Below are positions 2,889 through 21,122 of a stretch of DNA of 35,829 bases, in pieces. Source of the stretch: Asaia bogorensis (GTDB lineage Bacteria > Pseudomonadota > Alphaproteobacteria > Acetobacterales > Acetobacteraceae). Within the stretch, counting starts at the first letter, position 1; each line of letters opens with the position of its first letter. The notes under the pieces were generated by a model. That model ran no database searches, was not told the DNA's origin, and worked only from the letters and a program-made list of their open reading frames with translations. The stretch is taken from positions 1-35,829 of the forward strand of contig CAMCJI010000011.1 in assembly GCA_945874805.1 (NCBI GenBank). Reading direction: 5' to 3'. The translations under genes and the position numbers were made by a program.

Positions 2889-3282
2889 AATCAGCGTCTT
2901 CCGTCGCCTGTTCGATGACGGCGTGACCGCCCGCGCCGCCAAGGACGCCATCGATATGCTCGCCGCCCGCGATTGGACGATCTGCCCGATCCCCGGCGAT
3001 ACCGACATGACCCGCCTCGCCGCCGACCTGCTGGCGCTCGACGTGCAAGTGCAACTCCGCCGCCCCGAACAGCCCGAAACCGGCGCCTGGATCGCCGCCG
3101 TCCGCGAGCGCCACACCCTCTCCCAGCGCGACTTCGCCGACCGTCTCGGCTTCGATGTCCGCACCCTGCAAAACTGGGAACAGGGCCGCAACCGCCCAGA
3201 CTCGGCCGTGCTCAGCCTCATCCGCCTGTTCGACCGCGACCCCGCCCTCGTCCTCAGTGCCGTCTACGAGCCAATCGCATGA
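2764..3282 (+). CDS. HigA-like XRE-family transcriptional regulator / antitoxin
   Basis: The 172-residue protein ends in a Cro/CI-type helix-turn-helix at residues 110-160, including LSQRDFADRLGFDVRTLQNW and EQGRNRPD. The preceding region (about 30-105) matches the N-terminal layout of HigA/YiaG-like regulators that pair with small toxins. Its role is probably to repress its own operon and neutralise the upstream product; this is inferred. The only early ATG is at 2764, with GGAGAGG 10 bases upstream, which puts 125 bases of its frame inside the preceding gene. Its TGA overlaps the ATG of the ribokinase gene (ATGA, 3279-3282), so the three genes probably form one transcript. Confidence 0.75.
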   Translation: MSSELRARLAQLGPVRDITPARSSSAAPVPVLLRRIGSYRNRISVFRRLFDDGVTARAAKDAIDMLAARDWTICPIPGDTDMTRLAADLLALDVQVQLRRPEQPETGAWIAAVRERHTLSQRDFADRLGFDVRTLQNWEQGRNRPDSAVLSLIRLFDRDPALVLSAVYEPIA

Positions 3283-4157: not shown

Positions 4158-4160
4158 GTA

Positions 4161-4210
4161 AAGGGAAGGCCAGAAACTTCTTTTTTGAAAAAGAGAAGCA
4201 AAAAACTTTC
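4161..4210 (+). repeat. Palindromic unit R1 (left arm of pair 1)
   Basis: The unit begins 4 bp after the rbsK stop: GGGAAGGCCAGAAA, then CTTCTTTTTT, GA, AAAAGAGAAG, CAAAAAACTTT. It is the same family as six other units in the window. The GAAG/CTTC arms followed by a T-run look like an intrinsic terminator for rbsK. Its inverted partner is R2 at 4321-4378. Confidence 0.8.
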
Positions 4211-4244
4211 ACTCTGGCGTCGCCGCCAAGCCGGACAACCGGCT

Positions 4245-4261
4245 CAAAACCCGGCGAAGCC
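4245..4261 (-). repeat. 17-bp core shared with pair 2
   Basis: The minus strand reads GGCTTCGCCGGGTTTTG, identical to plus-strand 11812-11828. In both places it lies about 57-60 bp inside the CAAAAAACTTT end of a palindromic unit (R2 here, R3 there). Similarity extends further to TGGCGGCGA.GCC. The intergenic space 4211-4320 holds no gene, only this core and a GCCGG/CCGGC hairpin near 4235-4248. Confidence 0.75.
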
Positions 4262-4320
4262 AATATACGTGCTCTCGCCAGAACTCCGCTAAGCGCCTGA
4301 AACCCCAACTCGACGAATAG

Positions 4321-4378
4321 AGTTTTTTTGCTTCTTTTTGTTCACAAAAAGAAGACTCTTGCCTTTCTGCCGCCTGCC
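4321..4378 (-). repeat. Palindromic unit R2 (right arm of pair 1)
   Basis: On the minus strand the unit reads AAAGGCAAGAGT, CTTCTTTTT, GTGAAC, AAAAAGAAG, CAAAAAAACT. It ends 5 bp from the stop of the leftward dehydratase gene at 4383. Together with R1 it brackets about 110 bp between two convergent genes, so each unit sits at the 3' end of its own gene. Confidence 0.8.
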
Positions 4379-4382
4379 TTCC

Positions 4383-5363
4383 CTAAACCGCCGCCAACGC
4401 CCGCCCGAACACCGCCGGATCGACATTCCCGCCGCTGATCACCACCCCCACGACCTGCCCGCGCGCGTCGAACCGGCCGCTCAGCAGGGCTGCCAGCCCC
4501 ACCGCGCCGCCGGGTTCCACCACCAGCTTGAGGTGGCTGAACGCCCAGGCAATGGCCGCCAGCACTTCGTCGTCGCTCACCACCAGCCCGCCGGCCAGGC
4601 GCGGCCGGTTCACCTCAAAGGTCAGCTTGCCCGGCGATTTGGAGAGCAGCGAGTCGCACAGCGTCGACCCGCCCGGCGCATTGCCCTCGCGCGCGCCGCT
4701 GGCCAGCGAGCGGGCGGTGTCGTCCCAGCCCTCCGGCTCCACCGCATAAACGCGCGTGCCGGGCGAGGCGCCCTCGATCGCCAGCGCGCAGCCGGCGATC
4801 AGCCCGCCGCCGCCGGTGCAGGCCAGCAGCGAGTCCATCGTCAGGCCGAGGGCGGCTGCATCCTCCACGAGTTCCAGCGCCAGCGTCCCCTGGCCGGCGA
4901 TCACGTCGGCATGGTCGAACGGCGGCACCAGCACCGCGCCGGTGCGTTCGGCATGGGCGCGGGTCATGCCCTCGCGGTCGTCGGCCATGCGGTCGTAGCG
5001 GATGATCTCCGCCCCCCAGCGGCGCGTGCTCTCCACCTTGATGGCCGGCGCGTCGGCCGGCATGAACACGGTGGCGCGGGTGCCCACCGCTTGAGCCGCG
5101 GACGCGATGGCCTGGCCGTGGTTGCCGGAGGAATGGGTCACCACGCCGGCGCGGATCTGGGCCGCGTCGAGCTGGCGGATGGCGTTGGTGGCGCCGCGCA
5201 GCTTGAAGCTGCCGGTGCGCTGCAAGGGCTCGGGCTTGATCAGGATTGTGCCGCCGGTGCGCGCATCCAGCAGGGGATGGCGCAGCAGCGGCGTGCGCAC
5301 CACGAAGGGGGCGATGCGCGCCCGGGCGGCGGCGACATCGTCGTAGGTTGGCAGGTTCGGCAT
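4383..5363 (-). CDS. Threonine/serine dehydratase-like PLP enzyme
   Basis: This fold-type II PLP enzyme of 326 residues probably deaminates L-threonine or L-serine to a 2-oxoacid. The Schiff-base lysine is Lys54 in TGSFKLRGATNAI. The Asn loop SSGNHGQ and a glycine-rich phosphate-binding loop (CTGGGGLIAG) follow. It lacks the C-terminal ACT/regulatory domain of biosynthetic IlvA, so it resembles the short catabolic TdcB type; a hydroxyaspartate ammonia-lyase is also possible. The ATG at 5363 has GAGGGG about 7 bases upstream, and that site includes the TGA of the preceding gene. It is the last gene of a three-gene leftward operon headed by an Lrp-type regulator. Confidence 0.85.
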   Translation of the reverse strand: MPNLPTYDDVAAARARIAPFVVRTPLLRHPLLDARTGGTILIKPEPLQRTGSFKLRGATNAIRQLDAAQIRAGVVTHSSGNHGQAIASAAQAVGTRATVFMPADAPAIKVESTRRWGAEIIRYDRMADDREGMTRAHAERTGAVLVPPFDHADVIAGQGTLALELVEDAAALGLTMDSLLACTGGGGLIAGCALAIEGASPGTRVYAVEPEGWDDTARSLASGAREGNAPGGSTLCDSLLSKSPGKLTFEVNRPRLAGGLVVSDDEVLAAIAWAFSHLKLVVEPGGAVGLAALLSGRFDARGQVVGVVISGGNVDPAVFGRALAAV

Positions 5364-5374
5364 GGGTGATCCCC

Positions 5375-6820
5375 TCAGTGCGGACGCGGCAGCAGCGCCA
5401 GCGTCGCCCGGTCCGCAATCGCGGTAACACGATAAAGCCGGAACGTCTCCGCCACCATCCCCCGGCGGCTGCGCGAGAGCGTGCCGATCTCGCGGATGTC
5501 CTTCCACTCGCGCGGGTCCGGCCCGCCGGCGCGCCGGGCGCTGCGCAGCAGAATGCCGGCCTCGGCGACCGCCGTGGCATCGGCGTCCGGCAGGCCGAAC
5601 AGCGCCCAGCGCGGATCCGCGCCCAGCACCGGCGCGACGCCGGGGGTGAGCCAGGCCAGCAGGGCGGCGATGCCGTAATTGTCGGCGACGATGTAGCCCG
5701 CCCCCTCCAGTGCCCGCGTCGTCTCTACCTCCGCCGCCAGCTCCGCCCAGCCGCCGAGGCGCAGCAGGGTGGGGTCGGCGCGCATCGGCAGGGCGAGCGG
5801 GGCCAGCGTGCCCTGTACCCAGACCAGCGCCGTCATTCCCAGGCCCAGCGCCACGGACGGCCGCAACAGCCGCTGCCAGCGCCCGGCCAGCAGCCCCGCC
5901 GCGATGGCCGCCTGCGGATACAGGATCGAGGGCCAGTTCGCCTGCACCCGGTCGCCGAGCGCCGACCAGACGAACACGGCCGCGGGGATCAGCGTCAGCC
6001 CGGCCAGCAGCACCATGCCCGGCTCGCCCCGCCGCGCCCCCCGGGCGGCCGCCCAGAGGCCGGCGGCACAGAGCAGGGCGATGCCAGGGGTCGCGAAGCC
6101 AATCTGCCCGCCGATCAGCTCGGCGAGGAACTGCAGGGCCCGGGAAGGGTCCCAGTTGGCGACCCGGCCGCCCTGCTTGACGAAGCTGATCCAGCCATGT
6201 GCGGCGTTCCAGGCCAGCACCGGCGAGAACACCGCCAGCGCCATGCCGACCCCGGCCCAGAGCTGCCAGCGCCGCAGCCAGACCCGCAGGGTGGGCACCA
6301 CCAGCAGCCAGACGAGCACGCCGGGCACCATCAGCACGGCGGTGTATTTGCTCGCCATCGCGCAGCCGAAGGCCGCCCCGGCGAGGAGCCACCAGCGGCC
6401 GTCGCTCTCTGCCCAGAGGCGGCTGAGCGCCCAGAGCGTCACCGTCCAGAAGAACAGCAGCGGGGTATCCGGCGTCATCGTCGCCGCCCCGATACCGAAG
6501 AGCAGCGTAGCGTTCAGCAGCACCGCGGCGCGCAGGCCCGGCCGTTCGGCGGGGAAGAACGTATCGGCCGCGCGCATCAGCAGCACCGAGCCGCCCGCTG
6601 CCGCGAGGGGGCCAGCCAGCCGGATGCCCAGCTCGCTGGCACCGGCCAGCAGCGTGCCGGCCTTGATCCACAGGGCCACCATCGGCGGATGGTCGAAGTA
6701 GCCGCCGGCCAGGGCGGTGGACCAGACCCAGTAATAGGCCTCGTCCGGCGCCAGCGGCGTTGCCGCCGCCACGATCAGGCGCAGCAGGGTCAGCGCGGCG
6801 AGGGCCGCGAGCCACTGCAC
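5375..6820 (-). CDS. GT39-family (ArnT/PMT-like) membrane glycosyltransferase
   Basis: This 481-residue polytopic membrane protein has about ten hydrophobic helices. Near the N-terminus it has the GT39 signature: PDEAYYWVWS at about residues 24-33 with the acidic DE pair, then GYFDHPPMV, and later TMTPDTPLLFFW. Members transfer sugars from polyprenyl-phosphate carriers to lipid A or proteins on the periplasmic face; the acceptor here is unknown. The start is a GTG at 6818-6820 directly abutting the TAG of the lrp-like gene, which indicates translational coupling. The C-terminal half is more soluble and ends LALLPRPH. Why a glycosyltransferase is sandwiched between an Lrp regulator and an amino-acid dehydratase is unclear. 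Confidence 0.85.
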   Translation of the reverse strand: MQWLAALAALTLLRLIVAAATPLAPDEAYYWVWSTALAGGYFDHPPMVALWIKAGTLLAGASELGIRLAGPLAAAGGSVLLMRAADTFFPAERPGLRAAVLLNATLLFGIGAATMTPDTPLLFFWTVTLWALSRLWAESDGRWWLLAGAAFGCAMASKYTAVLMVPGVLVWLLVVPTLRVWLRRWQLWAGVGMALAVFSPVLAWNAAHGWISFVKQGGRVANWDPSRALQFLAELIGGQIGFATPGIALLCAAGLWAAARGARRGEPGMVLLAGLTLIPAAVFVWSALGDRVQANWPSILYPQAAIAAGLLAGRWQRLLRPSVALGLGMTALVWVQGTLAPLALPMRADPTLLRLGGWAELAAEVETTRALEGAGYIVADNYGIAALLAWLTPGVAPVLGADPRWALFGLPDADATAVAEAGILLRSARRAGGPDPREWKDIREIGTLSRSRRGMVAETFRLYRVTAIADRATLALLPRPH

Positions 6821-7300
6821 CTACAAGGGCACTCCCGCCAGGCTTCGGCTGGTGCGGATGGTCTGCAGGGTCTGCACCCGGCTGACATTGGCCGCCCCGG
6901 TCAGCTTCTGGGTGAGCAGGTTCTCATGCGCGGTGTCGCGCGCGACGAGCTTGAGCAGGAAGTCGCCGCCGCCGCGGATCATGTGGCATTCGCGCACCTC
7001 CGGCCAGTCCGCCGCCATCTGCTCGAAGGCGCTGAGCACCGTCTCCTTCTGGCTTTCCAGGCCGACGATGGCGAAGAAGGTGATTTCCCAGCCGAGCTTC
7101 TGCGGGTCCGAATCGGCGTGGTAGCCGCGGATGATCCCCGCCTCCTCCAGCCGGCGCACCCGGCGCAGGCAGGGGGGTGCTGAGATGCCGGCGCGGCGGG
7201 CGAGTTCCACGTTGGTCATCCGCCCGTCCGCCTGGAGCTCCGACAGGATGCGCCGATCGATCAGGTCGAGCGGCGGGGCGTCTTGCAGCTGGGATTTCAT
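6821..7300 (-). CDS. Lrp/AsnC-family transcriptional regulator
   Basis: The protein has 159 residues, the normal size for the family. The N-terminal AsnC-type helix-turn-helix starts LDLIDRRILSELQADGRMTN and continues ELARRAGISAPPCLRRVRRL (to about residue 50). An RAM ligand-binding domain follows, with the GGGDFLLKLVA strand. Such proteins sense amino acids. Being first in an operon with a threonine dehydratase-like gene suggests control by an amino acid, which is inference. The start is placed at ATG 7300, where AGAGG lies about 7 bases upstream, rather than 30 codons earlier. An AT-rich patch at 7387-7396 in the divergent region with trxB is a plausible autoregulatory site. Confidence 0.9.
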   Translation of the reverse strand: MKSQLQDAPPLDLIDRRILSELQADGRMTNVELARRAGISAPPCLRRVRRLEEAGIIRGYHADSDPQKLGWEITFFAIVGLESQKETVLSAFEQMAADWPEVRECHMIRGGGDFLLKLVARDTAHENLLTQKLTGAANVSRVQTLQTIRTSRSLAGVPL

Positions 7301-7490
7301 CCGGCGGACCTCTGGCACCTCGGCCGTGCGGGCGCCCGGACAGGACGATCCCGCCGCGGTGCGTTGCCGCCAGACCAAGGTTGACGACATATTATTTCAC
7401 GCAGCGGCGGGAACAAGGGCAGAGGGGCCGGTTCTTGTGATTGCACGCGCTGGGCCGATATGGTGCGGGCCATCGAAGTTGAGGCTTGCC

Positions 7491-8474
7491 ATGTCCACGA
7501 CCCATCATACCAAGGTTCTCATCATCGGCGCCGGACCGGCCGGCTACACGGCGGCGATCTACGCCGCGCGGGCCGGGCTGGAGCCGCTGCTGGTCGCCGG
7601 GATGCAGCCGGGGGGGCAGCTGACGATCACCACCGATGTGGAGAACTATCCCGGCTTCGCGCAGGCCATCCAGGGACCGTGGCTGATGGATCAGATGCAG
7701 GCGCAGGCCGAGCATGTCGGCACGAAGATTTTGTCCGATCTGATCACCGAGGTGGATTTCACCGGCCGGCCGTTTCGCGCGGTGGCCGATTCGGGGGATG
7801 TGTTCCTCGCCGATGCGGTGATCATCGCAACCGGCGCGCAGGCGCGCTGGCTGGGGCTGGAGTCCGAGAAGCGGCTCTCCGGGTTCGGGGTTTCGGCCTG
7901 TGCGACGTGTGACGGGTTCTTCTTTCGCGGCAAGCGGGTGGCAGTCGTCGGCGGGGGCAATACGGCGGTGGAGGAGGCGCTGTATCTGACCCACCACGCC
8001 AGCCACGTAACATTGATCCATCGGCGCGACAGCCTGCGGGCCGAGCGGATATTGCAGAAGCGGCTGTTCGCGCATCCGAAGGTCAGCGTGGTGTGGAATG
8101 CCGAGGTGGCGGAGGTGCTGGGGGGGCAGACGGTGGAGGCGGTGCGGCTGCGGGATACGCAGACGGGTGGGCTGTCGGACCTGGGGGTGGACGGGGTGTT
8201 CATCGCCATCGGGCACACGCCGACGACGGAGCTGTTTCGCGGCAAGCTCGATCTGGATGGCGATGGCTATATCCTGACGATGCCGGGAAGCACCCGTACA
8301 TCGGTACCCGGCGTGTTCGCGGCGGGCGATGTGCAGGATAAAATTTGGCGTCAGGCGGTTACAGCAGCAGGAACAGGTTGCATGGCGGCGCTGGAAGTCG
8401 AAAAGTGGATACCGAGTCTGGAAACGCCCGGCGGCGTCGATTCGCTGCCGCGCGCATACGCTTCGGCACCCTAG
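7491..8474 (+). CDS. trxB: Thioredoxin-disulfide reductase
   Basis: TrxB transfers electrons from NADPH through FAD and a redox disulfide to thioredoxin. The 327-residue protein has the FAD-binding GAGPAG at residues 13-18, the redox motif CATC at 137-140, the NADPH-binding GGGNTA at 154-159, and the C-terminal FAD motif GVFAAGDVQD. It carries a short C-terminal extension of about 20 residues past the usual end, without cysteines. The ATG at 7491 has TTGAGG 7 bases upstream. It diverges from the lrp-like operon and is followed by an lsrB-type regulator, a linkage common in Alphaproteobacteria. Confidence 0.95.
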   Translation: MSTTHHTKVLIIGAGPAGYTAAIYAARAGLEPLLVAGMQPGGQLTITTDVENYPGFAQAIQGPWLMDQMQAQAEHVGTKILSDLITEVDFTGRPFRAVADSGDVFLADAVIIATGAQARWLGLESEKRLSGFGVSACATCDGFFFRGKRVAVVGGGNTAVEEALYLTHHASHVTLIHRRDSLRAERILQKRLFAHPKVSVVWNAEVAEVLGGQTVEAVRLRDTQTGGLSDLGVDGVFIAIGHTPTTELFRGKLDLDGDGYILTMPGSTRTSVPGVFAAGDVQDKIWRQAVTAAGTGCMAALEVEKWIPSLETPGGVDSLPRAYASAP

Positions 8475-8597
8475 CATCAGAAGGCTGGGCTCGGCGGGGC
8501 TGGTCACGGCCGTCCCCGGAAGGGACGGGTGGCCGCGGGGATGGTGGACATAAGGCCGTTCGGCGCGCAAGCCGGCGGCCAGGGGATGGGCTGAACG

Positions 8598-9479
8598 ATG
8601 GATTGGGACAAGCTGCGCGTTTTCCACGCGGTGGCCGAGGCAGGCAGCTTCACGCATGCCGGCGACACCCTCAACCTCAGCCAGTCCGCCGTTTCGCGGC
8701 AGATCTCGGCGCTGGAGGAGGCGTTGCAGGTACCGCTGTTCCACCGGCATGCGCGGGGGCTGATCCTCACGGAGCAGGGCGAGAGCCTCAACCGCACCGT
8801 GCGCGAGGTGTTCGCCAAGCTGGCGATGACCGAGGCGCTGCTGACGGAGAGCAAGGAGCGGCCGGCCGGGCGCCTGAAGGTGACGACCACCGTGGCCTTC
8901 GGCTCCTCCTGGCTGGCGCCGCGGCTGCATACGTTCCTGGACCAGTATCCGGATGTGACGATGGAGCTGCTGCTGGACGATACCGATCTCGATCTGGCGA
9001 TGCGCGAGGCGGATGTGGCGATCCGGATGCATACGCCCAAGCAGCCCGATCTGGTGCAGCGGCATCTGACGGCGATCGAGTGGCATGTCTGCGCCTCGCC
9101 GGAGTATCTGCGCAAGCATGGCACGCCGAAGACGGTGGAAGAGCTGGACGGGCACAAGCTGATCCTGTTCGGCGACCATCATGCGCCGGTGGCCGACATC
9201 AACTGGCTGGCCGAGGTGGGGCGGCGGCCAGGCAGCCCGCGCAAGGCGCTGCTGGAGGTGAACTCGCTGCGGGGGATGCTCCACGCCGTTAAGTCGGGCC
9301 TGGGGATCGCGGCGGTGCCGGATTACATGCATGCCGAGACCGACGGGTTGGTGCGGATCCTGGCGGATGTGAAGGCGCCGAAGGTGGATGTGTATTTCGT
9401 CTATCCTGAGGAGCTGCGGAATTCCAAGCGGGTGGCGGTGTTCCGCGACTTCCTGCTGGCGCAGCTGAATACGCGCTGA
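8598..9479 (+). CDS. lsrB: LysR-type regulator of the LsrB/VtlR group
   Basis: The 293-residue LysR-type regulator opens MDWDKLRVFHAVAEAGSFTH and continues LSQSAVSRQISALE, the winged helix-turn-helix in residues 1-60. The effector-binding domain fills residues 90-290. The N-terminus closely matches the LsrB/VtlR regulators of rhizobia, Agrobacterium and Brucella, and the position next to trxB matches lsrB. Known members control redox balance, envelope polysaccharide and small RNA genes; here that role is inferred. The gap of 123 bases from trxB contains no obvious terminator, so co-transcription is possible. Confidence 0.85.
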   Translation: MDWDKLRVFHAVAEAGSFTHAGDTLNLSQSAVSRQISALEEALQVPLFHRHARGLILTEQGESLNRTVREVFAKLAMTEALLTESKERPAGRLKVTTTVAFGSSWLAPRLHTFLDQYPDVTMELLLDDTDLDLAMREADVAIRMHTPKQPDLVQRHLTAIEWHVCASPEYLRKHGTPKTVEELDGHKLILFGDHHAPVADINWLAEVGRRPGSPRKALLEVNSLRGMLHAVKSGLGIAAVPDYMHAETDGLVRILADVKAPKVDVYFVYPEELRNSKRVAVFRDFLLAQLNTR

Positions 9480-9486
9480 CGGGGCG

Positions 9487-9510
9487 GCGGGGGGTGCAAG
9501 GCCCCCCCGC
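9487..9510 (+). terminator. GC-rich hairpin after lsrB
   Basis: GCGGGGGG (9487-9494), an 8-base loop and CCCCCCGC (9503-9510) form a strong 8-bp stem 8 bases past the lsrB stop. It lacks a T-run, as is frequent in GC-rich genomes. A second hairpin, ATGGGC (9604-9609) with GCCCAT (9615-9620), lies further on. The rest of 9511-9660 shows no gene. Confidence 0.5.
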
Positions 9511-9664
9511 TATGCCGGTTGCCGGGGGCACCCATGATGCAGCGCGATATCTGCATTTGAATGCAATGAGATTTCTATTTTTCCGTTTGATGTGAAGCGG
9601 TTGATGGGCTTTCTGCCCATTTGGCCTAATCCCGCCTTGCTCGCCCGGCATGGCTGACCATGCT

Positions 9665-9816
9665 GCACCGCGGTAGCAATCGGCAGCCGGCGTTCCTACC
9701 TTTGGTTCACGAGATCAGGCGGGCTCCGGTTCGCCAGATGGGGGTTCCTGGCCCCCTTTGTGACCCAGACGTGAAGCCTCCCTATACCCTTGGCCCCGCG
9801 GTGCGAACTGCGGGGC
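9665..9816 (+). ncRNA. ssrS: Structured RNA resembling 6S RNA
   Basis: A long-range stem pairs GCACCGCGG (9665-9673) exactly with CCGCGGTGC (9796-9804) and closes an RNA of about 140 nt. Inside, TTCACG (9706-9711) pairs with CGTGAA (9770-9775), and an apical GGGGG/CCCCC hairpin surrounds TTCCTGGC. A long rod with a large internal bulge, and sequences such as CCTTTGGTTCACG and TTCCTGG, resemble alphaproteobacterial 6S RNA, which binds RNA polymerase by mimicking an open promoter. No protein reading is plausible here. It is not next to zapA, a common 6S neighbour, so the 6S name is tentative; that it is a structured RNA is better supported. SRP RNA was rejected because its GGAAGCAGCC-type loop is absent. 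Confidence 0.58.
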
Positions 9817-9825
9817 TCTCTTTTT
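9793..9825 (+). terminator. Intrinsic terminator of the 6S-like RNA
   Basis: GCCCCGC (9793-9799) and GCGGGGC (9810-9816) form a 7-bp stem followed by TCTCTTTTT (9817-9825). Its left arm overlaps the 3' strand of the RNA's closing stem, so the two structures are mutually exclusive. Confidence 0.8.
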
Positions 9826-9850
9826 GCAGGTATTTTGTTATGTAAACGTA

Positions 9851-11675: not shown

Positions 11676-11720
11676 GCAGGAAGGGAAGTGGCAGGAAGGC
11701 AAGGGGCAGGAAGGCAAGAA
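11676..11720 (+). repeat. Three tandem copies of a 15-bp repeat
   Basis: GCAGGAAGGGAAGTG, GCAGGAAGGCAAGGG and GCAGGAAGGCAAGAA stand head to tail at 11676, 11691 and 11706. The last copy is the outer arm of palindromic unit R3, so the arm itself has been triplicated. Confidence 0.85.
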
Positions 11721-11755
11721 TCTTCTTTTTTGGAAAAAAGAAGCAAAAAACTTTT
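11706..11755 (+). repeat. Palindromic unit R3 (left arm of pair 2)
   Basis: GCAGGAAGGCAAGAAT, CTTCTTTTTT, GG, AAAAAAGAAG, CAAAAAACTTTT. It is the only unit not at a gene 3' end; it lies 70 bp upstream of the MFS start. The shared 17-bp core follows at 11812-11828. Confidence 0.8.
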
Positions 11756-11907
11756 GGACGTTGGGTGGGGGTGGGGGCGCGGGATGGGGTTTTGGGGAGG
11801 GGGAGTTTTTGGGCTTCGCCGGGTTTTGCAATTGGTTTGGGAGGTGGCGGCGAGGCCGTTTGGCGGCTTTGGTCGCGAACGAAGCGTGTGGCCTTAAGGG
11901 GGCGAGC

Positions 11908-12044: not shown

Positions 12045-12110
12045 TGACGTGGGTGTGGTGGTGCGGGGGGCGAAGCCGGCCAATGGCAGGTTCGCCCCCA
12101 CCCAACGATC

Positions 12111-12163
12111 AAAGTTTTTTTGCTTCTTTTTGTTCACAAAAAGAAGAGTCTTCCTGGCCTTCC
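12111..12163 (-). repeat. Palindromic unit R4 (right arm of pair 2)
   Basis: On the minus strand: GGAAGGCCAGGAAGACT, CTTCTTTTT, GTGAAC, AAAAAGAAG, CAAAAAAACTTT. The outer end is 3 bp from the degP stop at 12166. With R3 it brackets about 355 bp of gene-free DNA. The GGAAGACTCTTC-TTTTT part could end degP transcription. Confidence 0.8.
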
Positions 12164-12165
12164 CG

Positions 12166-13710
12166 TCAGCCCGGCTTCTTGTCCGAAGGCGCGAGGGAGA
12201 GCGGCACCCAGCGCAGGCCGTCGCCGGATTGGACGAGCATGAGGACCGAGCGGCGGTTGGCTTTGCGGATTTTCTCCACGCGGTCCACCACGTCCGCCGG
12301 CGCGCTGACTTCTTCCTGCTGGACTTCGACGATGACGTCGCCGGGTTTCAGGCCGCGTTCGGCGGCGGGGGTGCCGGCGACGACGTCGGTGATCAGCACG
12401 CCTTTCTGGTCCGCGGCGATCTGGAACTTGTCGCGGCCTTCGGGGGTGAGGGCGGAGAGGCGCAGGCCGAGGCCGCTGAGTTCGAGGGCTTTGCTGGGGG
12501 CGGGCTTGTCGGGGTCGGCGCTGGCGGCGCGGATGGCTTCGTCGGGCATTTCGCCGACGCTGACCTGGAGGATGACTTCCTTGCCGTCGCGCCAGACGAC
12601 GACCGGGACGTCTTTGCCGATCGGGGTTTCGGCGACGATGCGCGGGAGGTTGCGCATCTCCTTGACGTCCTGGCCGGCGAATTTGAGAACGACGTCGCCG
12701 CTGCGGATCTTGCCCTTGTCGGCCGGGCCGCCTTCGTTGACGCCGGCGATCATGGCGCCGTTGGGCTCTTTCAGGCCGACGCTTTCGGCGATGTCGGGGC
12801 TGACCTGCTGGATGCGAACGCCGAGCCAGCCGCGCTTGGCGCGGCCGAAGTCGCGCAGCTGGGCGACGACGGAGCGGGCGAGGTTGGAGGGGATGGAGAA
12901 GCCGATGCCGATGGAGCCGCCGGAGGGGGAGTAGATGGCGGTGTTGATGCCGATGACCTCGCCATCCATGTTGAACAGCGGGCCGCCGGAGTTGCCTTTG
13001 TTGATGGCGGCGTCGGTCTGGATGAAGTTGTCGTAGGGGCCTTGGTTGATGTCGCGGTTGCGCGCCGAGACGATGCCGGCGCTGACCGAGCCGCCGAGGC
13101 CGAAGGGGTTGCCGATGGCGAGTACCCAGTCGCCGACGCGCGCTTTGTCCGAATCGCCCCAGGGGACGGCGACGAGGGCGCGGGTGGGCTCGACCTTGAG
13201 GACGGCGAGGTCGGTGCGTTCATCGCGGCCGAGGAGCTTGGCTTTGAGGGACAGGCCGTCGGGGAAGTTGACGGTGATCTCGTCCGCGCCGTCGATGACG
13301 TGGTTGTTGGTGACGACGATGCCCGAGGGGTCGATGACGAAGCCCGAGCCGAGGCTTTGCGCTTTGCGGGGCGGGGCGTCCGGGCGTTGGCCCTGGGGGC
13401 CGGGGGCGTTGGGGCCGCCGCGGGGGCCCTGGCGCTCCATGAAGTCGCGGAAGAACTTCTCGAAGGGCGAGCCGGGGGGGAATTGCGGCATGTCCGGGCC
13501 CGGGCGGTCGGGCCGGGCGGCGACGGTCTGGCTGGTGGAGATGTTGACGACGCCGGGCTGCAGCTTTTCGGCGAGGTCGGCGAAGCTTTCCGGGGCGCTG
13601 CGGGCCTGCGCGATGGGCGCGAGGAGGGCGGCGACGGGGGCGGGGACGAGCGGGGCGGCCAGCAGCAGCGAGAGGGCGACGGCCGTGGCGCGGGTGGCGG
13701 TGGTGTGCAT
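12166..13710 (-). CDS. degP: Periplasmic serine protease DegP/HtrA (Do family)
   Basis: The enzyme degrades or holds misfolded envelope proteins in the periplasm. The 514-residue precursor begins with a signal peptide (about 1-37, cleavage near AQARSA). It has a trypsin-like domain with catalytic His137 (NNHVIDGAD), Asp167 (RTDLAVLKV) and Ser241 (GNSGGPLF), then two PDZ domains (about 265-370 and 405-500). A Gly/Pro-rich LA-loop lies at about 92-115. ATG 13710 is preferred over 13716 because AGGGAA is 8-9 bases upstream of the former. A heat-shock-like promoter is possible upstream on the minus strand (CTTGCCG at 13767, CCCACATT at 13745), low confidence. It diverges from the amidase gene. 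Confidence 0.95.
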   Translation of the reverse strand: MHTTATRATAVALSLLLAAPLVPAPVAALLAPIAQARSAPESFADLAEKLQPGVVNISTSQTVAARPDRPGPDMPQFPPGSPFEKFFRDFMERQGPRGGPNAPGPQGQRPDAPPRKAQSLGSGFVIDPSGIVVTNNHVIDGADEITVNFPDGLSLKAKLLGRDERTDLAVLKVEPTRALVAVPWGDSDKARVGDWVLAIGNPFGLGGSVSAGIVSARNRDINQGPYDNFIQTDAAINKGNSGGPLFNMDGEVIGINTAIYSPSGGSIGIGFSIPSNLARSVVAQLRDFGRAKRGWLGVRIQQVSPDIAESVGLKEPNGAMIAGVNEGGPADKGKIRSGDVVLKFAGQDVKEMRNLPRIVAETPIGKDVPVVVWRDGKEVILQVSVGEMPDEAIRAASADPDKPAPSKALELSGLGLRLSALTPEGRDKFQIAADQKGVLITDVVAGTPAAERGLKPGDVIVEVQQEEVSAPADVVDRVEKIRKANRRSVLMLVQSGDGLRWVPLSLAPSDKKPG

Positions 13711-13891
13711 GGGCATGGTTCCCTGGAATCCATAACGAATGTGGGCGGGGCGCTGGGCATCGGCAAGCGGCAATGCCGCCCATGGCCAAGAGATAATGCG
13801 GTTGTGAGCCGGGGGAAGGGGCCGGGGAGGGCCTCGTCAGGCGCGCGGGTGTCGCTCATCATGGGGGCGTTCGTGGATGAGGAGCGTTGCG

Positions 13892-15439
13892 ATGACCGAT
13901 GTGATCGAGCTGGCCGGGCTGACGGTGGCTGGGGTGCGGCAGGGGCTGGCGGAGGGGCGGTTCAGCTGCGAGGCGCTGACGGCGGCGTGCCTGGCGCGGA
14001 TCGCGCGGTACAATCCGATCTATAACGCCGTCATCTTCGTCAATCCGGAGGCGCTGGCGGATGCGCGGGCGATCGATGCGCGGATCGCGACGGGGGAGGC
14101 GCTGGGGTCGCTGGCGGGGGTGCCGGTGGTGATCAAGGACCCGATGGACATGGTGGGGTTTCCCACCACCGGAGGGTGGTCTCAGCTCTACAGCGGGGCG
14201 GGCGGGGTGGATCTGATGCCGGGCAGCGACAGCGCGGTGGTGGCGCGGATGCGCGCGGCGGGGGCGATCTTGCTCGGCAAGACGAATGTGCCGGTGCTGA
14301 GCGCCAGCGGGACGCATGCCAATAACAGCTGGGCGGGGCCGACCGTGAACGCGGCGGCGCCGGACTTCGCGCCGGGGGCGAGCTCGGCGGGGACGGCGAG
14401 CGCGGTGGCGGCGGGGATGGCGGTGCTGGGGCTGGCGGAGGAGACCGGGGGGTCGATCCAGAATCCGGCCGGGGCGCAGGCGCTGGTGGGGATCAAGCCG
14501 ACGCATGGGCTGGTGCCGAATACCGGGGTGCTGCCGCTTTCCAGCCAGCGGGATGTGGTGGGGCCGATCGCGCGGTGCGTCGCGGATGCGGCGCTGTGCC
14601 TGGATGTGCTCGCGGGGTTCACCATGGCGGACCCGAAGACGGTGGCCGCGGTGGGGCGGTTGCCCGTCGGCGGGTATGCGGCGGGGCTGAGCACCACGGC
14701 GCTGGCGGGGCGGCGGGTGGGGCTGTACGGGCCGGGGTGGCGGACGGCGGAGCGCGGGGGTGCGCTGGCCGAGGAGACGGCGGGGCTTTACGCGCAGGCG
14801 CAGGCGGATATCGCGGCGCGCGGGGCGGTGCTGGTGGAGGACCCGTTTGCCGGGTCCGGGTTTGCCGATATCTCGGTGGCCGGCGTCGGCGGGATGACGT
14901 ACGACCGGCGGGGCATGGAGTCGCTGCCTTACGACATGCAGAAATATCTGGAGCGGCTGGGGCCGGATGCGGCGTTGCGCAGTTTTGCGGCGTTTGCCGC
15001 GGCGACGCAGGCGCAGGACCCGTTCGCGCCGGGCGGGGTGCTGCAATACATGGCGGAGATGCCGGCGTTCCAGGCGAGCCTGGCCGATCCGGCGGCGGTG
15101 CCGGAGCTGCGGGAGTTCGTGGCGGCGCGGGAGGCGTATCTGGCGGTGTTCGATGCGGTGATGGAGCGGCACGGGCTGGATGTGCTGGCGTTTCCGCAAC
15201 AGCGCGCGCCGCTGCCGGCGCTGCACGGCGAGGCGCAGATCCGCACGACGACGGTCTCGGAGATCAATATTGCGGGGTTGCCGGGGGTGGTGGTGCCGGC
15301 GGGGTATCATGCCGATGGCTCGCCGTTTGCGCTGATCTGGCTGGGACGGCGGTTCAGCGAGGCGACGCTGCTGGCGCTGGCGTACGACTATGAGCAGGCG
15401 ACGCAGCACCGGCGGGTGCCGGTGCTGCGGGAGGCGTAG
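13892..15439 (+). CDS. Amidase-signature family hydrolase
   Basis: The 515-residue cytoplasmic enzyme has the Ser-cisSer-Lys triad of the amidase signature family. Lys82 is in VVIKDPMDM, cis-Ser164 in PGASSAGTASAVAAG, and the nucleophile Ser188 in ETGGSIQNPAG. The motif ASSAG replaces the usual GSSGG, which may alter substrate preference. The substrate (an amide, nitrile-derived amide or peptide end) cannot be told from sequence; GatA is unlikely because no gatB or gatC is adjacent. ATG 13892 has GGAG 9 bases upstream. The gene ends 7 bp from the stop of convergent hflC with no room for a separate terminator. Confidence 0.88.
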   Translation: MTDVIELAGLTVAGVRQGLAEGRFSCEALTAACLARIARYNPIYNAVIFVNPEALADARAIDARIATGEALGSLAGVPVVIKDPMDMVGFPTTGGWSQLYSGAGGVDLMPGSDSAVVARMRAAGAILLGKTNVPVLSASGTHANNSWAGPTVNAAAPDFAPGASSAGTASAVAAGMAVLGLAEETGGSIQNPAGAQALVGIKPTHGLVPNTGVLPLSSQRDVVGPIARCVADAALCLDVLAGFTMADPKTVAAVGRLPVGGYAAGLSTTALAGRRVGLYGPGWRTAERGGALAEETAGLYAQAQADIAARGAVLVEDPFAGSGFADISVAGVGGMTYDRRGMESLPYDMQKYLERLGPDAALRSFAAFAAATQAQDPFAPGGVLQYMAEMPAFQASLADPAAVPELREFVAAREAYLAVFDAVMERHGLDVLAFPQQRAPLPALHGEAQIRTTTVSEINIAGLPGVVVPAGYHADGSPFALIWLGRRFSEATLLALAYDYEQATQHRRVPVLREA

Positions 15440-15446
15440 GGAGCCT

Positions 15447-16322
15447 TTACGGAGTGGGCTTGGGCGCCTCGCGGAGGAGCTTCAGGAAGTCCGACGAGGG
15501 GGTCATCACGAGGCGGGAGGTGCCGCCGGCGAAGGACTCGCGGTAGGCTTGCAGGGTGCGCCAGACCTGGAAGAACTGCTTGTCCCGGTTGAAGGCGTCG
15601 GCGTAGATCGCGATGGCCTGGGCTTCACCCTCGCCGCGCAGGTTGTCGGCGGTGGCGCGGGCCTGGGCGATCAGGACGGTGCGTTCGCGTTCGGCCTCGG
15701 CACGGATGCGCGAGCTGGCTTCCGCACCCTCGGCGCGTGCCTGGGCGGCGACGCGCTGACGCTCGGACTGCATGCGCGACAGAATCGCCTGGGTGTTTTC
15801 CTCCGGCAGGTCGGCGCGGCGGATGCGGACATCCTCCACCGAGACGCCGAAGTTTTTCATCTCGGCGTTCACCTGGTCGCGGATGGTGCTCATGATGCGG
15901 GCGCGGTTGGAGGACAGCACGTTGAGCAACTGCTCGTTGCCGAGCACGCGGCGCAGGGACGAGGAGACGACGGAGGTGAGGCGCGAGCGGATGCCATCCT
16001 CCGTCGGGCCGACGGCCTGATAGTAGCGCAGCGGGTCGGTGATGCGGAAGCGGGTGAAGCTGTCCACGATCAGGCGGCGCTGGTCGCCGAGGATGACTTC
16101 CTCGGAGGGGACTTCATAGTCGAGCAGGCGGCGGTCGAAGCTCAGCACCGTCTGGATCAGCGGGATCTTGACGTGCAGGCCCGGCGTGTTGATGGCGCGG
16201 ATCGGCTGGCCGAACTGGGTGATCAGCACCTGTTCGGTCTGCTGCACGACGAACAGCGAGGAGCCGGCGATGAGGACCACGGCGCCGATGCCGGCGACGA
16301 GGATGGTGAGGAGGCGGTTCAT
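15447..16322 (-). CDS. hflC: HflC, membrane protease modulator
   Basis: HflC forms with HflK a large SPFH-domain complex around the FtsH protease in the inner membrane and modulates its activity. The 291-residue protein has an N-terminal membrane anchor (about residues 5-25, ILVAGIGAVVLIAG), an SPFH/band-7 domain (about 25-200, including TEQVLITQFGQPIR) and a charged coiled-coil rich in Ala, Glu and Arg (about 185-240). Its ATG overlaps the hflK stop (ATGA at 16322-16319), so translation is coupled. It converges on the amidase gene with a 7-bp gap. Confidence 0.95.
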   Translation of the reverse strand: MNRLLTILVAGIGAVVLIAGSSLFVVQQTEQVLITQFGQPIRAINTPGLHVKIPLIQTVLSFDRRLLDYEVPSEEVILGDQRRLIVDSFTRFRITDPLRYYQAVGPTEDGIRSRLTSVVSSSLRRVLGNEQLLNVLSSNRARIMSTIRDQVNAEMKNFGVSVEDVRIRRADLPEENTQAILSRMQSERQRVAAQARAEGAEASSRIRAEAERERTVLIAQARATADNLRGEGEAQAIAIYADAFNRDKQFFQVWRTLQAYRESFAGGTSRLVMTPSSDFLKLLREAPKPTP

Positions 16323-17665
16323 CGCGGGGCTCCCGTGGGCGCGGCAGGTGCGGTGGTGCGGGCCGGCGGGCGGTTGACTTCGCCGAGCGGCAGATAGGGG
16401 ACGATGCCCTGGAGCTTGTCATCGACGATGACGGAGGGGGTGCTGGTGAGCACCTCCTGCATCGTTTCGATATACAGGCGCTCCATCGTCACGTCCTTGC
16501 TGGCCTGGTAGGCGCGCAGCACCGAGAGGAAGCGCTGCGCCTCACCGGTGGAGGCGGTGATGGAGACCTGCCGGGCGCCCTCGGCCTCGGCGACGAGGCG
16601 TGCGGATTCGCCGCGGGCGCGGGGGACGATGTCGTTGCGGTAGGATTCCGCCTCGTTGCGCACCCTGTCCGCATCGGTGTTGGCGCGCTGGACGTCGCGG
16701 AAGCTTTCGATGACGGCGGCAGGGGGATCGACCTTTTGCAGCTGGATCTGGGTGATCTCCACGCCGGCGCCGTACTGGTCGAGGATGGTCTGCACGCCGC
16801 GCAGCACGGCGGCTTCGACGGCGGCGCGGGCATCGGTCAGCGCGGGCTGGATGGGGGTGCGGCCGATGACCTCGCGCATGACGCTCTCGGCGGCGGATTT
16901 CACCGTGTTGGCGGCGTTGCGGGTGTTGAACAGGTAGTTCGAGGCGTCCCGGATGCGCCAGAAGACGGCGAAGTCGATGTCGATGATGTTTTCATCGCCG
17001 GTGAGCATCAGGCTTTCTTCGATGACGTCCCGCGAGTTGGCGTTGCTGCCGCGCGGGCCGCGCAGATCGGTGCCGACAGTGCGGTAGCCGACCTCGACCC
17101 GGTTGATGCGGGTGACGGCGGGCTTGAAGACGGCCTCGACCGGCCAGGGGACGTGGTAGTTCAGGCCGGGGAAGGTGGTGCGGTCATAGGCGCCGAAGCG
17201 CAGCACCACGCCCTGCTCGTCGGGCTGGATGCGGTAGAAGCCGCTGGAGAGCCAGCCGCCGACGGCGACCACGGCGATCAACGCGAGGACGCGGCCGCTG
17301 GCGAGGGGACCAACACTCATTCCGCCGCCGCCGCCGGATGGGCCGTTCGGGCCGCCGCCGCCGGGGACGAAGCCGCGCAGGAAGGCCTGGGCGCGGGCGA
17401 TCACCTCATCGATGTCAGGCCCGCCGCCGCCGCCGCCGCGATTGCCGCCGCCACCGCCGCCGCCGAAGGGGCCGCCGCGGTTGCCGCCGCCGGGGTTGCC
17501 CCAAGGGCCGCGGGTCGGGCCGTCGTTGTCGCTGCCGCTGTTGTCAGCCGGGCGCGAGCCGCCGGGGCTGCCCCAGGGGTTCTGCGGGCCTTGCCCGCCG
17601 GGCTTGCCATCCTTGCCGTCGCCGCCCGACCCGGAATTCCCCGAGCCGCCGTTGTTCCATGACAT
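16319..17665 (-). CDS. hflK: HflK, membrane protease modulator
   Basis: HflK is the partner of HflC in the FtsH-HflKC complex. The 448-residue protein starts MSWNNGGSGNSG. A Gly/Asn/Pro-rich cytoplasmic tail (about 3-117), typical of HflK, is followed by a membrane segment (about 124-142) and the SPFH domain beginning RIQPDEQGVVLRFGAY. A coiled-coil and short C-terminal tail follow. The long runs of glycine codons make this tail a low-complexity GC stretch. ATG 17665 is chosen because the family starts with MSW; no close ribosome-binding site is visible. The gene diverges from mrp. Confidence 0.95.
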   Translation of the reverse strand: MSWNNGGSGNSGSGGDGKDGKPGGQGPQNPWGSPGGSRPADNSGSDNDGPTRGPWGNPGGGNRGGPFGGGGGGGNRGGGGGGPDIDEVIARAQAFLRGFVPGGGGPNGPSGGGGGMSVGPLASGRVLALIAVVAVGGWLSSGFYRIQPDEQGVVLRFGAYDRTTFPGLNYHVPWPVEAVFKPAVTRINRVEVGYRTVGTDLRGPRGSNANSRDVIEESLMLTGDENIIDIDFAVFWRIRDASNYLFNTRNAANTVKSAAESVMREVIGRTPIQPALTDARAAVEAAVLRGVQTILDQYGAGVEITQIQLQKVDPPAAVIESFRDVQRANTDADRVRNEAESYRNDIVPRARGESARLVAEAEGARQVSITASTGEAQRFLSVLRAYQASKDVTMERLYIETMQEVLTSTPSVIVDDKLQGIVPYLPLGEVNRPPARTTAPAAPTGAPR

Positions 17666-17778
17666 CGTGCGGAAACGCTCCTGTATCGCGGCCCTGAGCG
17701 GGGCCGTGCGCGGACTTGTGAGATAGGCCATTGGCAGCGACGCAACGCAGCGTCATATCCCCTGCATGGCCCACCCCT

Positions 17779-17807
17779 ATATCGACCGGCTTCTGAGGGT
17801 TTTCAAG
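17779..17807 (-). promoter_or_regulatory. Possible heat-shock (sigma-32-like) promoter for hflKC
   Basis: On the minus strand CTTGAAA (17807-17801) exactly matches the sigma-32 -35 element. CGATAT (17784-17779) follows after 16 bases and partly resembles the alphaproteobacterial -10. It would give a leader of about 105 bases before hflK. The element is immediately upstream of the mrp start used here. Confidence 0.35.
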
Positions 17808-17810
17808 CGA

Positions 17811-18932
17811 ATGTCCCACCCGCCACAGATGACGTCTTCGCAAGGTTCGCTCAGGGCGGCGCTGGCCGCCGTGCGCGACCCCGCCAGCGGGCTTGATATC
17901 GTCGCCGCGGGGCTGGTGGACTCGATCCAGCTCAAGGACGGAATGGTGCAGGTGAGCCTGCTGACCTCACGCGCGCAGGCCGCCGCGATGGAGCCGGTGC
18001 GGGCCGAAGTGGAGCGGGTGCTGGCCGCCCAGCCGGGAGTGCGTAATGCCACTGCGGTGCTGACGTCGGGGATGCCGGCGCCTTCCCCCGCTGCCGCTGC
18101 TCCGGCCCCGGCCCCGAAGGGCGGGGAGAAGCCGAAGCTGCTGGCCGATGTGCGCGCCGTGGTCGCGGTGGCCAGCGGCAAGGGCGGCGTGGGCAAAAGC
18201 ACGGTGGCGGTGAACCTCGCCGTGTCGCTCGCGCGGATGGGGCTGCGGGTGGGGATGCTGGATGCGGATATCTACGGGCCGTCGCTGCCGCGTATGCTCG
18301 GGCTGAACCGCAAGCCGGAAGTGCGCGGCGACCGGATGATCCCGCTGCCCGCCTGGGGGCTCAAGGCGATGTCGATCGGCTTCCTCGTCGAGGAGGAGAC
18401 GCCGATGATCTGGCGCGGGCCGATGGTGATGGGCGCGCTGGAGCAGATGATGGGCCAGGTGGAGTGGGGGCCGCTTGATATCATGATCGTCGACATGCCG
18501 CCGGGGACGGGGGACGCGCAGCTGACGATGGCGCAGCGGGTGGCGCTCGCCGGGGCGGTGATCGTCTCGACGCCGCAGGATATCGCGCTGCTGGACGCGC
18601 GGCGGGGGGTGCGGATGTTCGAGCGGACGATGGTGCCGGTGCTCGGGCTGATCGAGAACATGAGCTACTATTGCTGCCCGAATTGCGGGCACCGGGCCGA
18701 AATCTTCGGGCATGGCGGGGCGCGGGCGGAGGCGGGGCGGCTGGGATGCGAATTCCTCGGCGAGATTCCGCTGTTGCTCGACATCCGCACGGCGGCGGAC
18801 GCCGGCACGCCGATCGCCGCGAGCGATCCGGACAGCGCGGCGGCACAGGCCTATGCGGTGGTGGCGAAGCGGCTGTGGGAGAAGGTTTCGGGCGAGCCGG
18901 CGGCGAAGGGGCCGACGATCCGGATCAGTTGA
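17811..18932 (+). CDS. mrp: Mrp/ApbC-type Fe-S cluster carrier ATPase
   Basis: The protein belongs to the Mrp/NBP35 P-loop family that carries and inserts [4Fe-4S] clusters. The 373-residue protein has an N-terminal MIP18/DUF59 domain (about 8-90), a Pro/Ala linker (about 88-105), and the P-loop domain. That domain has the deviant Walker A GKGGVGKST at 123-131, DMPPGTGD, and the cluster-binding CPNC at 289-292. The start is uncertain between ATG 17811 and ATG 17829. The last 92 bases recur at 19841-19932, exactly 1000 bases downstream, with 12 mismatches. Confidence 0.93.
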   Translation: MSHPPQMTSSQGSLRAALAAVRDPASGLDIVAAGLVDSIQLKDGMVQVSLLTSRAQAAAMEPVRAEVERVLAAQPGVRNATAVLTSGMPAPSPAAAAPAPAPKGGEKPKLLADVRAVVAVASGKGGVGKSTVAVNLAVSLARMGLRVGMLDADIYGPSLPRMLGLNRKPEVRGDRMIPLPAWGLKAMSIGFLVEEETPMIWRGPMVMGALEQMMGQVEWGPLDIMIVDMPPGTGDAQLTMAQRVALAGAVIVSTPQDIALLDARRGVRMFERTMVPVLGLIENMSYYCCPNCGHRAEIFGHGGARAEAGRLGCEFLGEIPLLLDIRTAADAGTPIAASDPDSAAAQAYAVVAKRLWEKVSGEPAAKGPTIRIS

Positions 18933-18946
18933 GAGCCTTCCCTCCC

Positions 18947-18965
18947 CCCGCCCGTCAGGGGCGGG
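18947..18965 (+). terminator. GC hairpin after mrp
   Basis: CCCGCCC (18947-18953) and GGGCGGG (18959-18965) form a perfect 7-bp stem 14 bases after the mrp stop. A weak T-rich tract (GTTTCATTTT) follows about 15 bases later. Confidence 0.5.
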
Positions 18966-19097
18966 TGGGGCGTGCTGGATGTTTCATTTTGTAGAATCCG
19001 CCTCGAAATACGCCATTTGCCGGCGCTGCGGCTTGTGGGGGCACGGCCGTGCAGCTAGTTCGACTGCATCGATTCCATCATCATTCAGGTTCAAAGC

Positions 19098-19664
19098 ATG
19101 TCACCGACCGCCGCCCTTCGCGCCACCGCCATCGCCACCGTGCTGCTCTGCGGCACCGCCGCCGCAGAGGCGGCCACGATCACCCGCACCTTCTCCTTCT
19201 CCTTCGGCCCGGTAAGCACGATCTACGGCCCCGAGCTCACCGCCCCCATCGACCCTTTCACCGGCTCGGTGACGGTCACCTGGGACCCCAGCATCGCCAC
19301 GTTCAACTCCACCACCGGCATCACCCTGACCACCCCCGGCTTCACGATGACGGAGACCCCTGGGTTTACCTACAACCCTGCCGACTACGACGCGCTGAGG
19401 ATCGGCGGCGTCAGCATGTTCTCCGACGCCGACAACGTCGCGTATCTTGCGAACGACATCGCGCTGAGCATCGGCAACGCCAGCACCGCCGGCCCCTATG
19501 GCGGCCAGCTCTACCTCGGCATCACCAGCAGTGAGTCGCTGTTCGTGTTCTACGGCGGCGCCATCACCGAGGGCGCCCCTGCCCCGGCGCCCGAGCCTGC
19601 CTCGCTCGCGCTGCTCGCGACCGGCCTGCTCGGCCTGCGCCTCGCCCGCCGCCGCGCGGCCTGA
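19098..19664 (+). CDS. Secreted PEP-CTERM protein
   Basis: The 188-residue protein has a signal peptide (residues 1-25, ending AAAEAA) and a C-terminal PEP-CTERM sorting signal: PEPASLALLATGLLGLRLAR, then RRAA. PEP-CTERM proteins are processed at the membrane by an exosortase, which must be encoded elsewhere. The body is Thr/Ser-rich and predicted to be beta-rich (FSFSFGPVSTIYG, GSVTVTWDPS); no enzyme motif is seen. The gene is flanked on both sides by copies of the mrp 3' end, so it may have arrived as part of an insertion. The upstream stretch 18966-19097 shows no other gene. Confidence 0.85.
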   Translation: MSPTAALRATAIATVLLCGTAAAEAATITRTFSFSFGPVSTIYGPELTAPIDPFTGSVTVTWDPSIATFNSTTGITLTTPGFTMTETPGFTYNPADYDALRIGGVSMFSDADNVAYLANDIALSIGNASTAGPYGGQLYLGITSSESLFVFYGGAITEGAPAPAPEPASLALLATGLLGLRLARRRAA

Positions 19665-19673
19665 CGCTGGGAA

Positions 19674-19714
19674 GAAGGGCCTTCTTTTTCGAGAAAGAGA
19701 AGACTCTTACTTCC
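19674..19714 (-). repeat. Palindromic unit R5 (unpaired, degenerate)
   Basis: AAGAAGGGCCTTCTTTTTC, then GAG, AAAGAGAAG and ACTCTTACTTCC. It keeps the CTTCTTTTT/AAAGAGAAG arms and the outer ACTCTT arm of the right-hand units but has lost CAAAAAACTTT. It lies 10 bp after the PEP-CTERM stop and directly before the inverted ribokinase fragment. AAGAAGG/CCTTCTT plus a T-run may end the PEP-CTERM gene. Confidence 0.65.
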
Positions 19715-19720
19715 TGTCGG

Positions 19721-19844
19721 TCTCCTCACGAGAGGGCAGCGCCCCCTGCGTGCCCGGCCTGGTGCAGGCCAGGCCGGCGCCGGTGGTGTCGATCACAGCG
19801 ACGGGGGTGGCGGGGAGGCGGAGGAGGCCGGTGCGGGTGGCGGC
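19721..19844 (-). pseudogene. Inverted, internally deleted ribokinase 3' fragment
   Basis: On the minus strand this matches the 3' end of rbsK in this window. Block 19773-19844 equals the reverse complement of 3930-4001 at 67 of 72 positions. Block 19721-19772 aligns, more weakly, with the reverse complement of 4083-4140. The rbsK segment between (about 4002-4082) is missing, and both deletion ends carry GCCGGCG, so the deletion probably arose at a short direct repeat. It encodes no functional protein. The donor may be this rbsK or a paralog. Confidence 0.85.
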
Positions 19845-19932
19845 ACGGGCCTATGCGGCGGTGGCCAAGCGGCTGTGGGAGAAGGTTTCGGGCGACACCC
19901 GGCCGAAGGGGCCGAGCATCCGGATCAGCTGA
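19841..19932 (+). pseudogene. Second copy of the mrp 3' end
   Basis: Bases 19841-19932 match mrp 18841-18932 at 80 of 92 positions without gaps, including the stop codon. The encoded peptide, AAVAKRLWEKVSG followed by KGPSIRIS, corresponds to the mrp C-terminus AVVAKRLWEKVSG and KGPTIRIS. It is joined on the left to the inverted ribokinase fragment at a shared GGCGGC. The remaining bases to motB (19933-20042) hold no other gene. Confidence 0.9.
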
Positions 19933-20042
19933 AAGCGGGGCTGCCCGGATTGCCGTGGGGTGGATTTGGGGTGGGCCCGGGTGGAGGGTTAGGGGTTTCT
20001 TAGGGGGATGGTGGCAGGTTCGGGGCCTTCGTTGGGGGCCCC

Positions 20043-21122
20043 ATGGCAGGCAAAGCGCGCGATCGCGGCAGCGTCATCATCAAGAAGTACGAGATCGTCG
20101 AGGGGGGGCATCACGGCGGCGCCTGGAAGGTCGCGTATGCCGACTTCGTGACGGCGATGATGGCGTTCTTTCTGCTGATGTGGCTGCTGAACGCCACCAG
20201 CGAGGACCAGCGCAAGGGCCTCGCGGATTTTTTCACGCCGAGCAATGAGATCAGCCGCGGCTCGTCCGGCTCCGGTCAGCCGTTTGGCGGGCGGACGCCG
20301 TTCGAGCAGGGGGAGCTGGTATCCGATCGCGGGGCGCAGACGGTGATCGAGGGGAAATCCCAGGCGGTGCCGGAAGAGGACGACCCCGATGCCGAGAAGG
20401 GGCCGCAGCGCACCGCCGGCGGCAAGCCGGCGCGCCCGCCCGGCGGCGACGGTGCCGAGGACGCTATGCGGGCCAGGCAGATGGCGATGCAAGCCAATGG
20501 CGAGCCGGGCGGCACGGCGGCGGCAAAGGCGCGCGTGCAGTCTCAGGCGCTTGGCCAGGCGCAGACGCTGGCCAATGCCGGCGAGGGCCTGCAGATGGCC
20601 GCCGCCGACGAGGCAGCACTGAAGGCCGAGATCGAACGGCGCGAGCGCGAGGCGTTCGAGCAGGCGACCCAGCAGATCAAGGAGGCGATCCGCAGCGACC
20701 CGCGGCTCGCCGAGTTGCTGAATCAGCTCACCATCGACCAGACGCCGGAGGGGCTGCGCATCCAGCTGCTCGACGAGGACAAGCGGCCGATGTTCGCCAC
20801 CGGCTCGGCCACGCTGGCCGAGCACCCCAGGCTGCTGCTGGGCAAGATCGCGCCGATCCTGGCGAAGCTGCCGGAGGGCATCTCGATCGCCGGGCATACG
20901 GACGCCGCGCCCTTCCGGGGTGGGGAGCGCAGCAATTGGGAGCTCTCGGCCGAGCGCGCGAACGCCACGCGGCGGCTGCTGGTGGAGGCGGGGCTGGCCG
21001 AGCGGCGCATCCGCCATGTCGCCGGCAATGCCGACCGCGATCCGCTGCTGCCGGCCGATCCCTTCGCCGCCGCCAACCGCCGCATCGCCATCGTGGTGCT
21101 GCGCGCGGCGCGGCCGAACTGA
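20043..21122 (+). CDS. motB: Flagellar motor stator protein MotB
   Basis: MotB anchors the flagellar stator to peptidoglycan and conducts protons. The 359-residue protein has a cytoplasmic N-terminus and one membrane helix at about 29-50, with the proton-carrying Asp34 in AYADFVTAMMAFFLLMWLLN. A long charged linker follows (about 60-215, rich in Gly, Ala, Glu and Gln), then a C-terminal OmpA-like domain with IAGHTDAAPF, NWELSAERAN and RRIAIVV. The ATG at 20043 gives a normal MotB start; no strong ribosome-binding site is visible. motB precedes motA here, the reverse of the E. coli order, and no other flagellar genes are in the window. Confidence 0.93.
   Translation: MAGKARDRGSVIIKKYEIVEGGHHGGAWKVAYADFVTAMMAFFLLMWLLNATSEDQRKGLADFFTPSNEISRGSSGSGQPFGGRTPFEQGELVSDRGAQTVIEGKSQAVPEEDDPDAEKGPQRTAGGKPARPPGGDGAEDAMRARQMAMQANGEPGGTAAAKARVQSQALGQAQTLANAGEGLQMAAADEAALKAEIERREREAFEQATQQIKEAIRSDPRLAELLNQLTIDQTPEGLRIQLLDEDKRPMFATGSATLAEHPRLLLGKIAPILAKLPEGISIAGHTDAAPFRGGERSNWELSAERANATRRLLVEAGLAERRIRHVAGNADRDPLLPADPFAAANRRIAIVVLRAARPN

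Follow-up and report, generated by a model that had tools for sequence, protein, structure and literature searches.

The 3' end of an mrp gene is present twice in the 35,829-nucleotide stretch of Asaia bogorensis DNA analysed here (hereafter, the window), and the two copies enclose a gene encoding a PEP-CTERM protein together with the 3' end of the ribokinase gene rbsK. With moderate confidence, we regard this arrangement as the scar of a recombination event in the gap between mrp and rbsK, by which a segment was imported from a related strain, followed by an inversion. The scar is well resolved but fairly ordinary.

The two tails (18841-18932 and 19841-19932) are identical at 80 of 92 positions without any gap, and the match lengthens to 18839-18936/19839-19936 (E 2e-28), with a TGA stop inside each copy and a start-to-start distance of exactly 1000 bp. 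As the tail scores at most 48/92, ungapped, against all other 92-mers of the window on both strands, the repeat that a preliminary description of this DNA had placed at the mrp 3' end, stop codons included, is real. The protein encoded by the intact gene reaches 315 bits against PRK11670/ApbC, under the equivalog cut-off of 348. The main features of the region are listed in the table.

Table. Features of the doubled mrp 3' end, of its contents and of the inversion (positions in the window)
Feature	Positions	Strand	Evidence
ORF with full-length rbsK, PfkB family, match from residue ~102	2973-4157	+	PF00294, E 2.8e-55; convergent with mrp in the sister
Interval of the left inversion breakpoint, occupied by a single copy of the ~225-bp dispersed repeat, whose ends form hairpins	4158-4382	.	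Comparison with relatives
Intact gene of an mrp/apbC-type Fe-S carrier ATPase, ending in tail copy 1	17766-18932	+	PF10609, E 2.3e-100
mrp 3' end, copy 1	18839-18936	+	Sequence match to copy 2
PEP-CTERM protein gene (188 aa), the cargo	19098-19664	+	PF07589, 24.3 bits (cut-off 20.7); TIGR02595 above cut-off
Hairpin, with 22 bp similar to the tip of the 225-bp dispersed repeat	19670-19712	.	Sequence comparison
rbsK 3' end pseudogene, 45 codons, TAA stop near 19710	19710-19844	-	Match to the window's own rbsK
mrp 3' end, copy 2; orphan, reading frame unbroken up to the stop	19839-19936	+	Match to copy 1
Junction, 6-bp GGCGGC common to the rbsK and mrp sequences	19839-19844	.	Microhomology
Right inversion breakpoint interval, before motB, in unique sequence	19933-20042	.	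Comparison with relatives
motB; its ancestral upstream neighbour is the PALP gene, today at 4383-5372	20043-21122	+	Comparison with the sister and other genera

Between the tails, the PEP-CTERM gene and the ribokinase fragment announced by the preliminary description are borne out, whereas its "repeat unit" apparently amounts to no more than a 22-bp piece, the hairpin tip of the 225-bp dispersed repeat. A search of 40 relatives found no close homologue of the PEP-CTERM gene, the top outside match having 38% identity. The rbsK fragment, which translates as AATRTGLLRLPATPVAVIDTTGAGLACTRPGTQGALPSREETDRK followed by the stop, matches the window's full rbsK at 93% (3930-4001) and 82% (4070-4126) but has lost, in frame, 29 codons (87 bp) that cover the catalytic GAGD motif. 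The stretch deleted from the fragment is flanked on each side by a GCCGGC repeat, which the deletion may therefore have used.

In about 20 related loci, mrp and rbsK are convergent neighbours, and the distance between them ranges from -4 to 1,095 bp. The shortest gap, -4 bp, is that of the sister G001, the one genome of the same genus, where the mrp stop abuts rbsK (L039/L119). Elsewhere, the gap often holds accessory genes that differ by genus, namely a peptidoglycan-binding/TIGR02594-type gene in L070 and other, unrelated ORFs in L042, L075, L078 and L098. In the window, mrp is followed by the PEP-CTERM gene, then by the rbsK 3' end in reversed orientation and then by the second mrp 3' end. 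Since mrp and rbsK are ancestrally convergent, this order reads as a head-to-tail repeat of their ends, joined at GGCGGC, and copy 2 should be followed by the full rbsK. The full gene lies instead 14 kb from mrp, in the opposite orientation.

This displacement is explained by one inversion of about 15.7 kb, which, taking two contigs of the sister as adjacent, is shown by comparison to separate the window from the ancestral order. Indeed, sister contig L119 carries homologues of window positions 12168-18894, then rbsK (4126-3278 reversed), then 2389-1127 reversed, and on sister contig L118 motA-motB is directly joined to homologues of 4414-9826. The sister keeps both ancestral neighbourhoods, with mrp beside rbsK and the PALP gene beside motB, the latter two being neighbours also in L153 (G010), L155 (G018) and L163 (G006). 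Both junctions of the window differ from those of the relatives by the reversal of one segment, and mrp lies upstream of motB because of this later inversion. Therefore, relatives should not be expected to show the empty site predicted by the preliminary description, with motB directly after mrp; it was not seen, the sister and other genera having the PALP gene before motB and mrp facing rbsK.

The intergenic repeat that occupies 4158-4382 has hairpin ends, one being the inverted repeat of the other, and related pieces lie at 11694-11828 and 12095-12163. The genome contains at least 40 copies, about 73-81% identical (40 of 322 candidates scored), and the repeat looks like a MITE- or REP-like family.

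The proposed scheme starts from the ancestral convergent pair documented by comparison, with its variable gap and accessory genes that differ by genus. DNA of a related strain, carrying an mrp end, the PEP-CTERM gene and an rbsK end, would have recombined into this locus by a crossover within mrp, mediated by homology, on the left and by joining at the 6-bp microhomology inside the resident mrp tail on the right. The resident mrp 3' end and rbsK would thereby have been displaced downstream. The inversion, shown by the two sister contigs and the other genera, then followed; with one breakpoint separating copy 2 from rbsK and the other the PALP gene from motB, it took the full rbsK 14 kb off and brought motB beside the scar. 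No mobile-element enzyme would be needed.

Such a mechanism would work like homology-facilitated illegitimate recombination (HFIR), for which PMC5361080 cites Acinetobacter, Streptococcus and Pseudomonas stutzeri and which, according to PMC3240628, was tested in E. coli conjugation. In HFIR, as is proposed for the scar, homology at one end and an illegitimate joint at the other bring in a novel gene and displace resident sequence downstream; unlike these cases, the scar is deduced from one draft genome and was followed by an inversion. The window displays a short microhomology at one end (GGCGGC at 19839-19844). The homologous stretch at the other end may be the mrp tail present in both copies, although the identity profile of mrp against four relatives makes no left crossover point visible, and the sequence between the ends may be foreign, no homologue of the PEP-CTERM gene being found at the mrp-rbsK slot of the sister or of any other relative examined. 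HFIR has also been proposed for the displaced 3' genes of Vibrio T6SS effector arrays and Rhs loci (PMC5361080), which share with the scar a conserved upstream anchor and an old 3' part left behind the newcomer; however, those loci carry effector/immunity modules, whereas the scar involves core housekeeping genes and a PEP-CTERM cargo. The gap also resembles, by its fixed position and its genes differing by lineage, the flexible genomic islands exchanged by homologous recombination that are described in PMC4033161, but the mrp-rbsK slot is very small in comparison (0-1.1 kb). If the import reading is true, doubled gene tails would record, in legible form, that uncultured bacteria have acquired genes by illegitimate recombination.

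A local origin of the repeat, although a serious possibility, appears less probable. The lineage's own mrp 3' end, gap and rbsK 3' end, or a larger block later trimmed, would have been duplicated in tandem by microhomology, the PEP-CTERM gene entering one copy of the gap before or after, and the same inversion would have followed. This would produce the identical order without any donor: the window indeed shows the succession mrp 3' end, gap, reversed rbsK 3' end and mrp 3' end expected of a simple tandem duplication, with the full rbsK relocated by the inversion. The 6-bp microhomology at the novel joint and the RIS ending, common to both tails and not seen in the sister, point the same way. 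However, the spare ends do not show the unconstrained drift of a non-functional copy. The differences between the mrp tails affect 0/40 columns conserved among relatives versus 12/50 variable ones (Fisher p=4e-4), and those of the rbsK fragment 3/54 versus 23/81 (p=6e-4), half of the latter falling at third codon positions; conservation thresholds of 0.6, 0.7 and 0.8 all gave the same direction, with p between 4e-4 and 0.03, the quoted values being the strongest for each gene. As the differences avoid conserved columns, the spare ends would have diverged mostly within working genes, unlike those of a small duplication dead from birth. Furthermore, the divergence from the sister is no greater for copy 2 than for copy 1, and no PEP-CTERM gene remains beside the full rbsK at 4158-4382.

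The question of which tail is native, raised in the preliminary description, is only weakly resolved: of the 12 differing sites, the sister agrees with copy 2 at 7 and with copy 1 at 2, a weak polarity, and the consensus of all relatives is flat (6 versus 5). Because of the constraint on the spare ends, the 7:2 match to the sister, which is suggestive only, and a parallel case in another genus, these comparisons favour, but do not prove, the import of a related strain's mrp-3'/cargo/rbsK-3' segment over a recent, decayed duplication. The constraint tests would agree equally with a larger duplication whose copies were functional for a time before being trimmed.

The parallel case is G015, from another genus of the family, in which a TIGR02594-type gene comes after mrp and precedes a second mrp tail (L120 8166-8981, on G015:C5, minus strand). 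This tail, of 53 bp and about 92% identity, lies behind a peptidoglycan-binding/TIGR02594 gene that is missing beside mrp in the congeners G041, G042 and G044, and is itself followed by a stretch resembling the end of the gene that follows mrp in G044. A 52%-identical homologue of the G015 cargo gene is found in L070, in the order mrp-X-rbsK. G015 is an independent case of a second mrp tail behind a different cargo gene. Among the matches listed when 130 genomes of the family were searched with an mrp C-terminus profile, which mrp genes with another C-terminus matched weakly only, second tails near mrp were found only in G015 and in the window's own genome (G000). When 844 kb of related loci were scanned, 3'-end repeats emerged in three places, at mrp in the window, at mrp in G015 and in L067, the last being assumed to correspond to paralogous genes; three such repeats are too few for claiming enrichment, and a general hot spot at mrp was not retained. 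More speculatively, and in our view rather improbably, the mrp-rbsK gap of Acetobacteraceae could be a natural slot that repeatedly receives single cargo genes through mrp-anchored, one-sided homologous recombination, second tails being the scars.

Integrative elements that insert at gene 3' ends target, for example, icd, guaA and tRNA genes, and the scar shares with them the direct repeat of a gene 3' end. It is nevertheless very improbable that a mobile element targeting the mrp 3' end and supplying a substitute end produced the arrangement, although the repeat surrounds a cargo gene and an mrp tail is likewise repeated around one in another genome, G015. The segment of about 1 kb between the tails contains the PEP-CTERM gene and the rbsK fragment, and no integrase or other recombinase, transposase, tRNA or att core was found in it. 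The repeated parts differ, 92 bp in the window versus 53 bp in G015, where the repeat starts past the block that is identical here; since they do not span the same part of the mrp end, they lack a common core. Moreover, such repeats occur in only 2 of the 130 family members searched, among the matches listed, and the scar, unlike these elements, holds a fragment of a neighbouring gene. Of the element with a substitute 3' end envisaged in the preliminary description, one part survives, namely that the two tails probably derive from different mrp alleles and that one of these probably brought the intervening DNA along; site-specific integration does not, given the lack of recombinase and att core, the rbsK 3' end lying inside in its ancestral orientation and the microhomology joint. 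The window illustrates how the 3' end of a gene can come to be repeated around a cargo gene with no mobile-element enzyme involved, and the presence of an ancestral neighbour's gene end inside the insert is a simple test that separates recombination scars from integrative elements.

A metagenome assembly artefact is just as improbable: the draft assembly to which the window belongs is in 401 contigs and the left breakpoint falls on a repeat with at least 40 copies, but identity among these copies is only about 73-81%, the spare ends differ by 7-18% rather than being identical, and the right breakpoint lies in unique sequence.

The only RNA families recognized in the window are a tmRNA and a tRNA; the tmRNA gene, at 1086-1448, is of the permuted alphaproteobacterial type.
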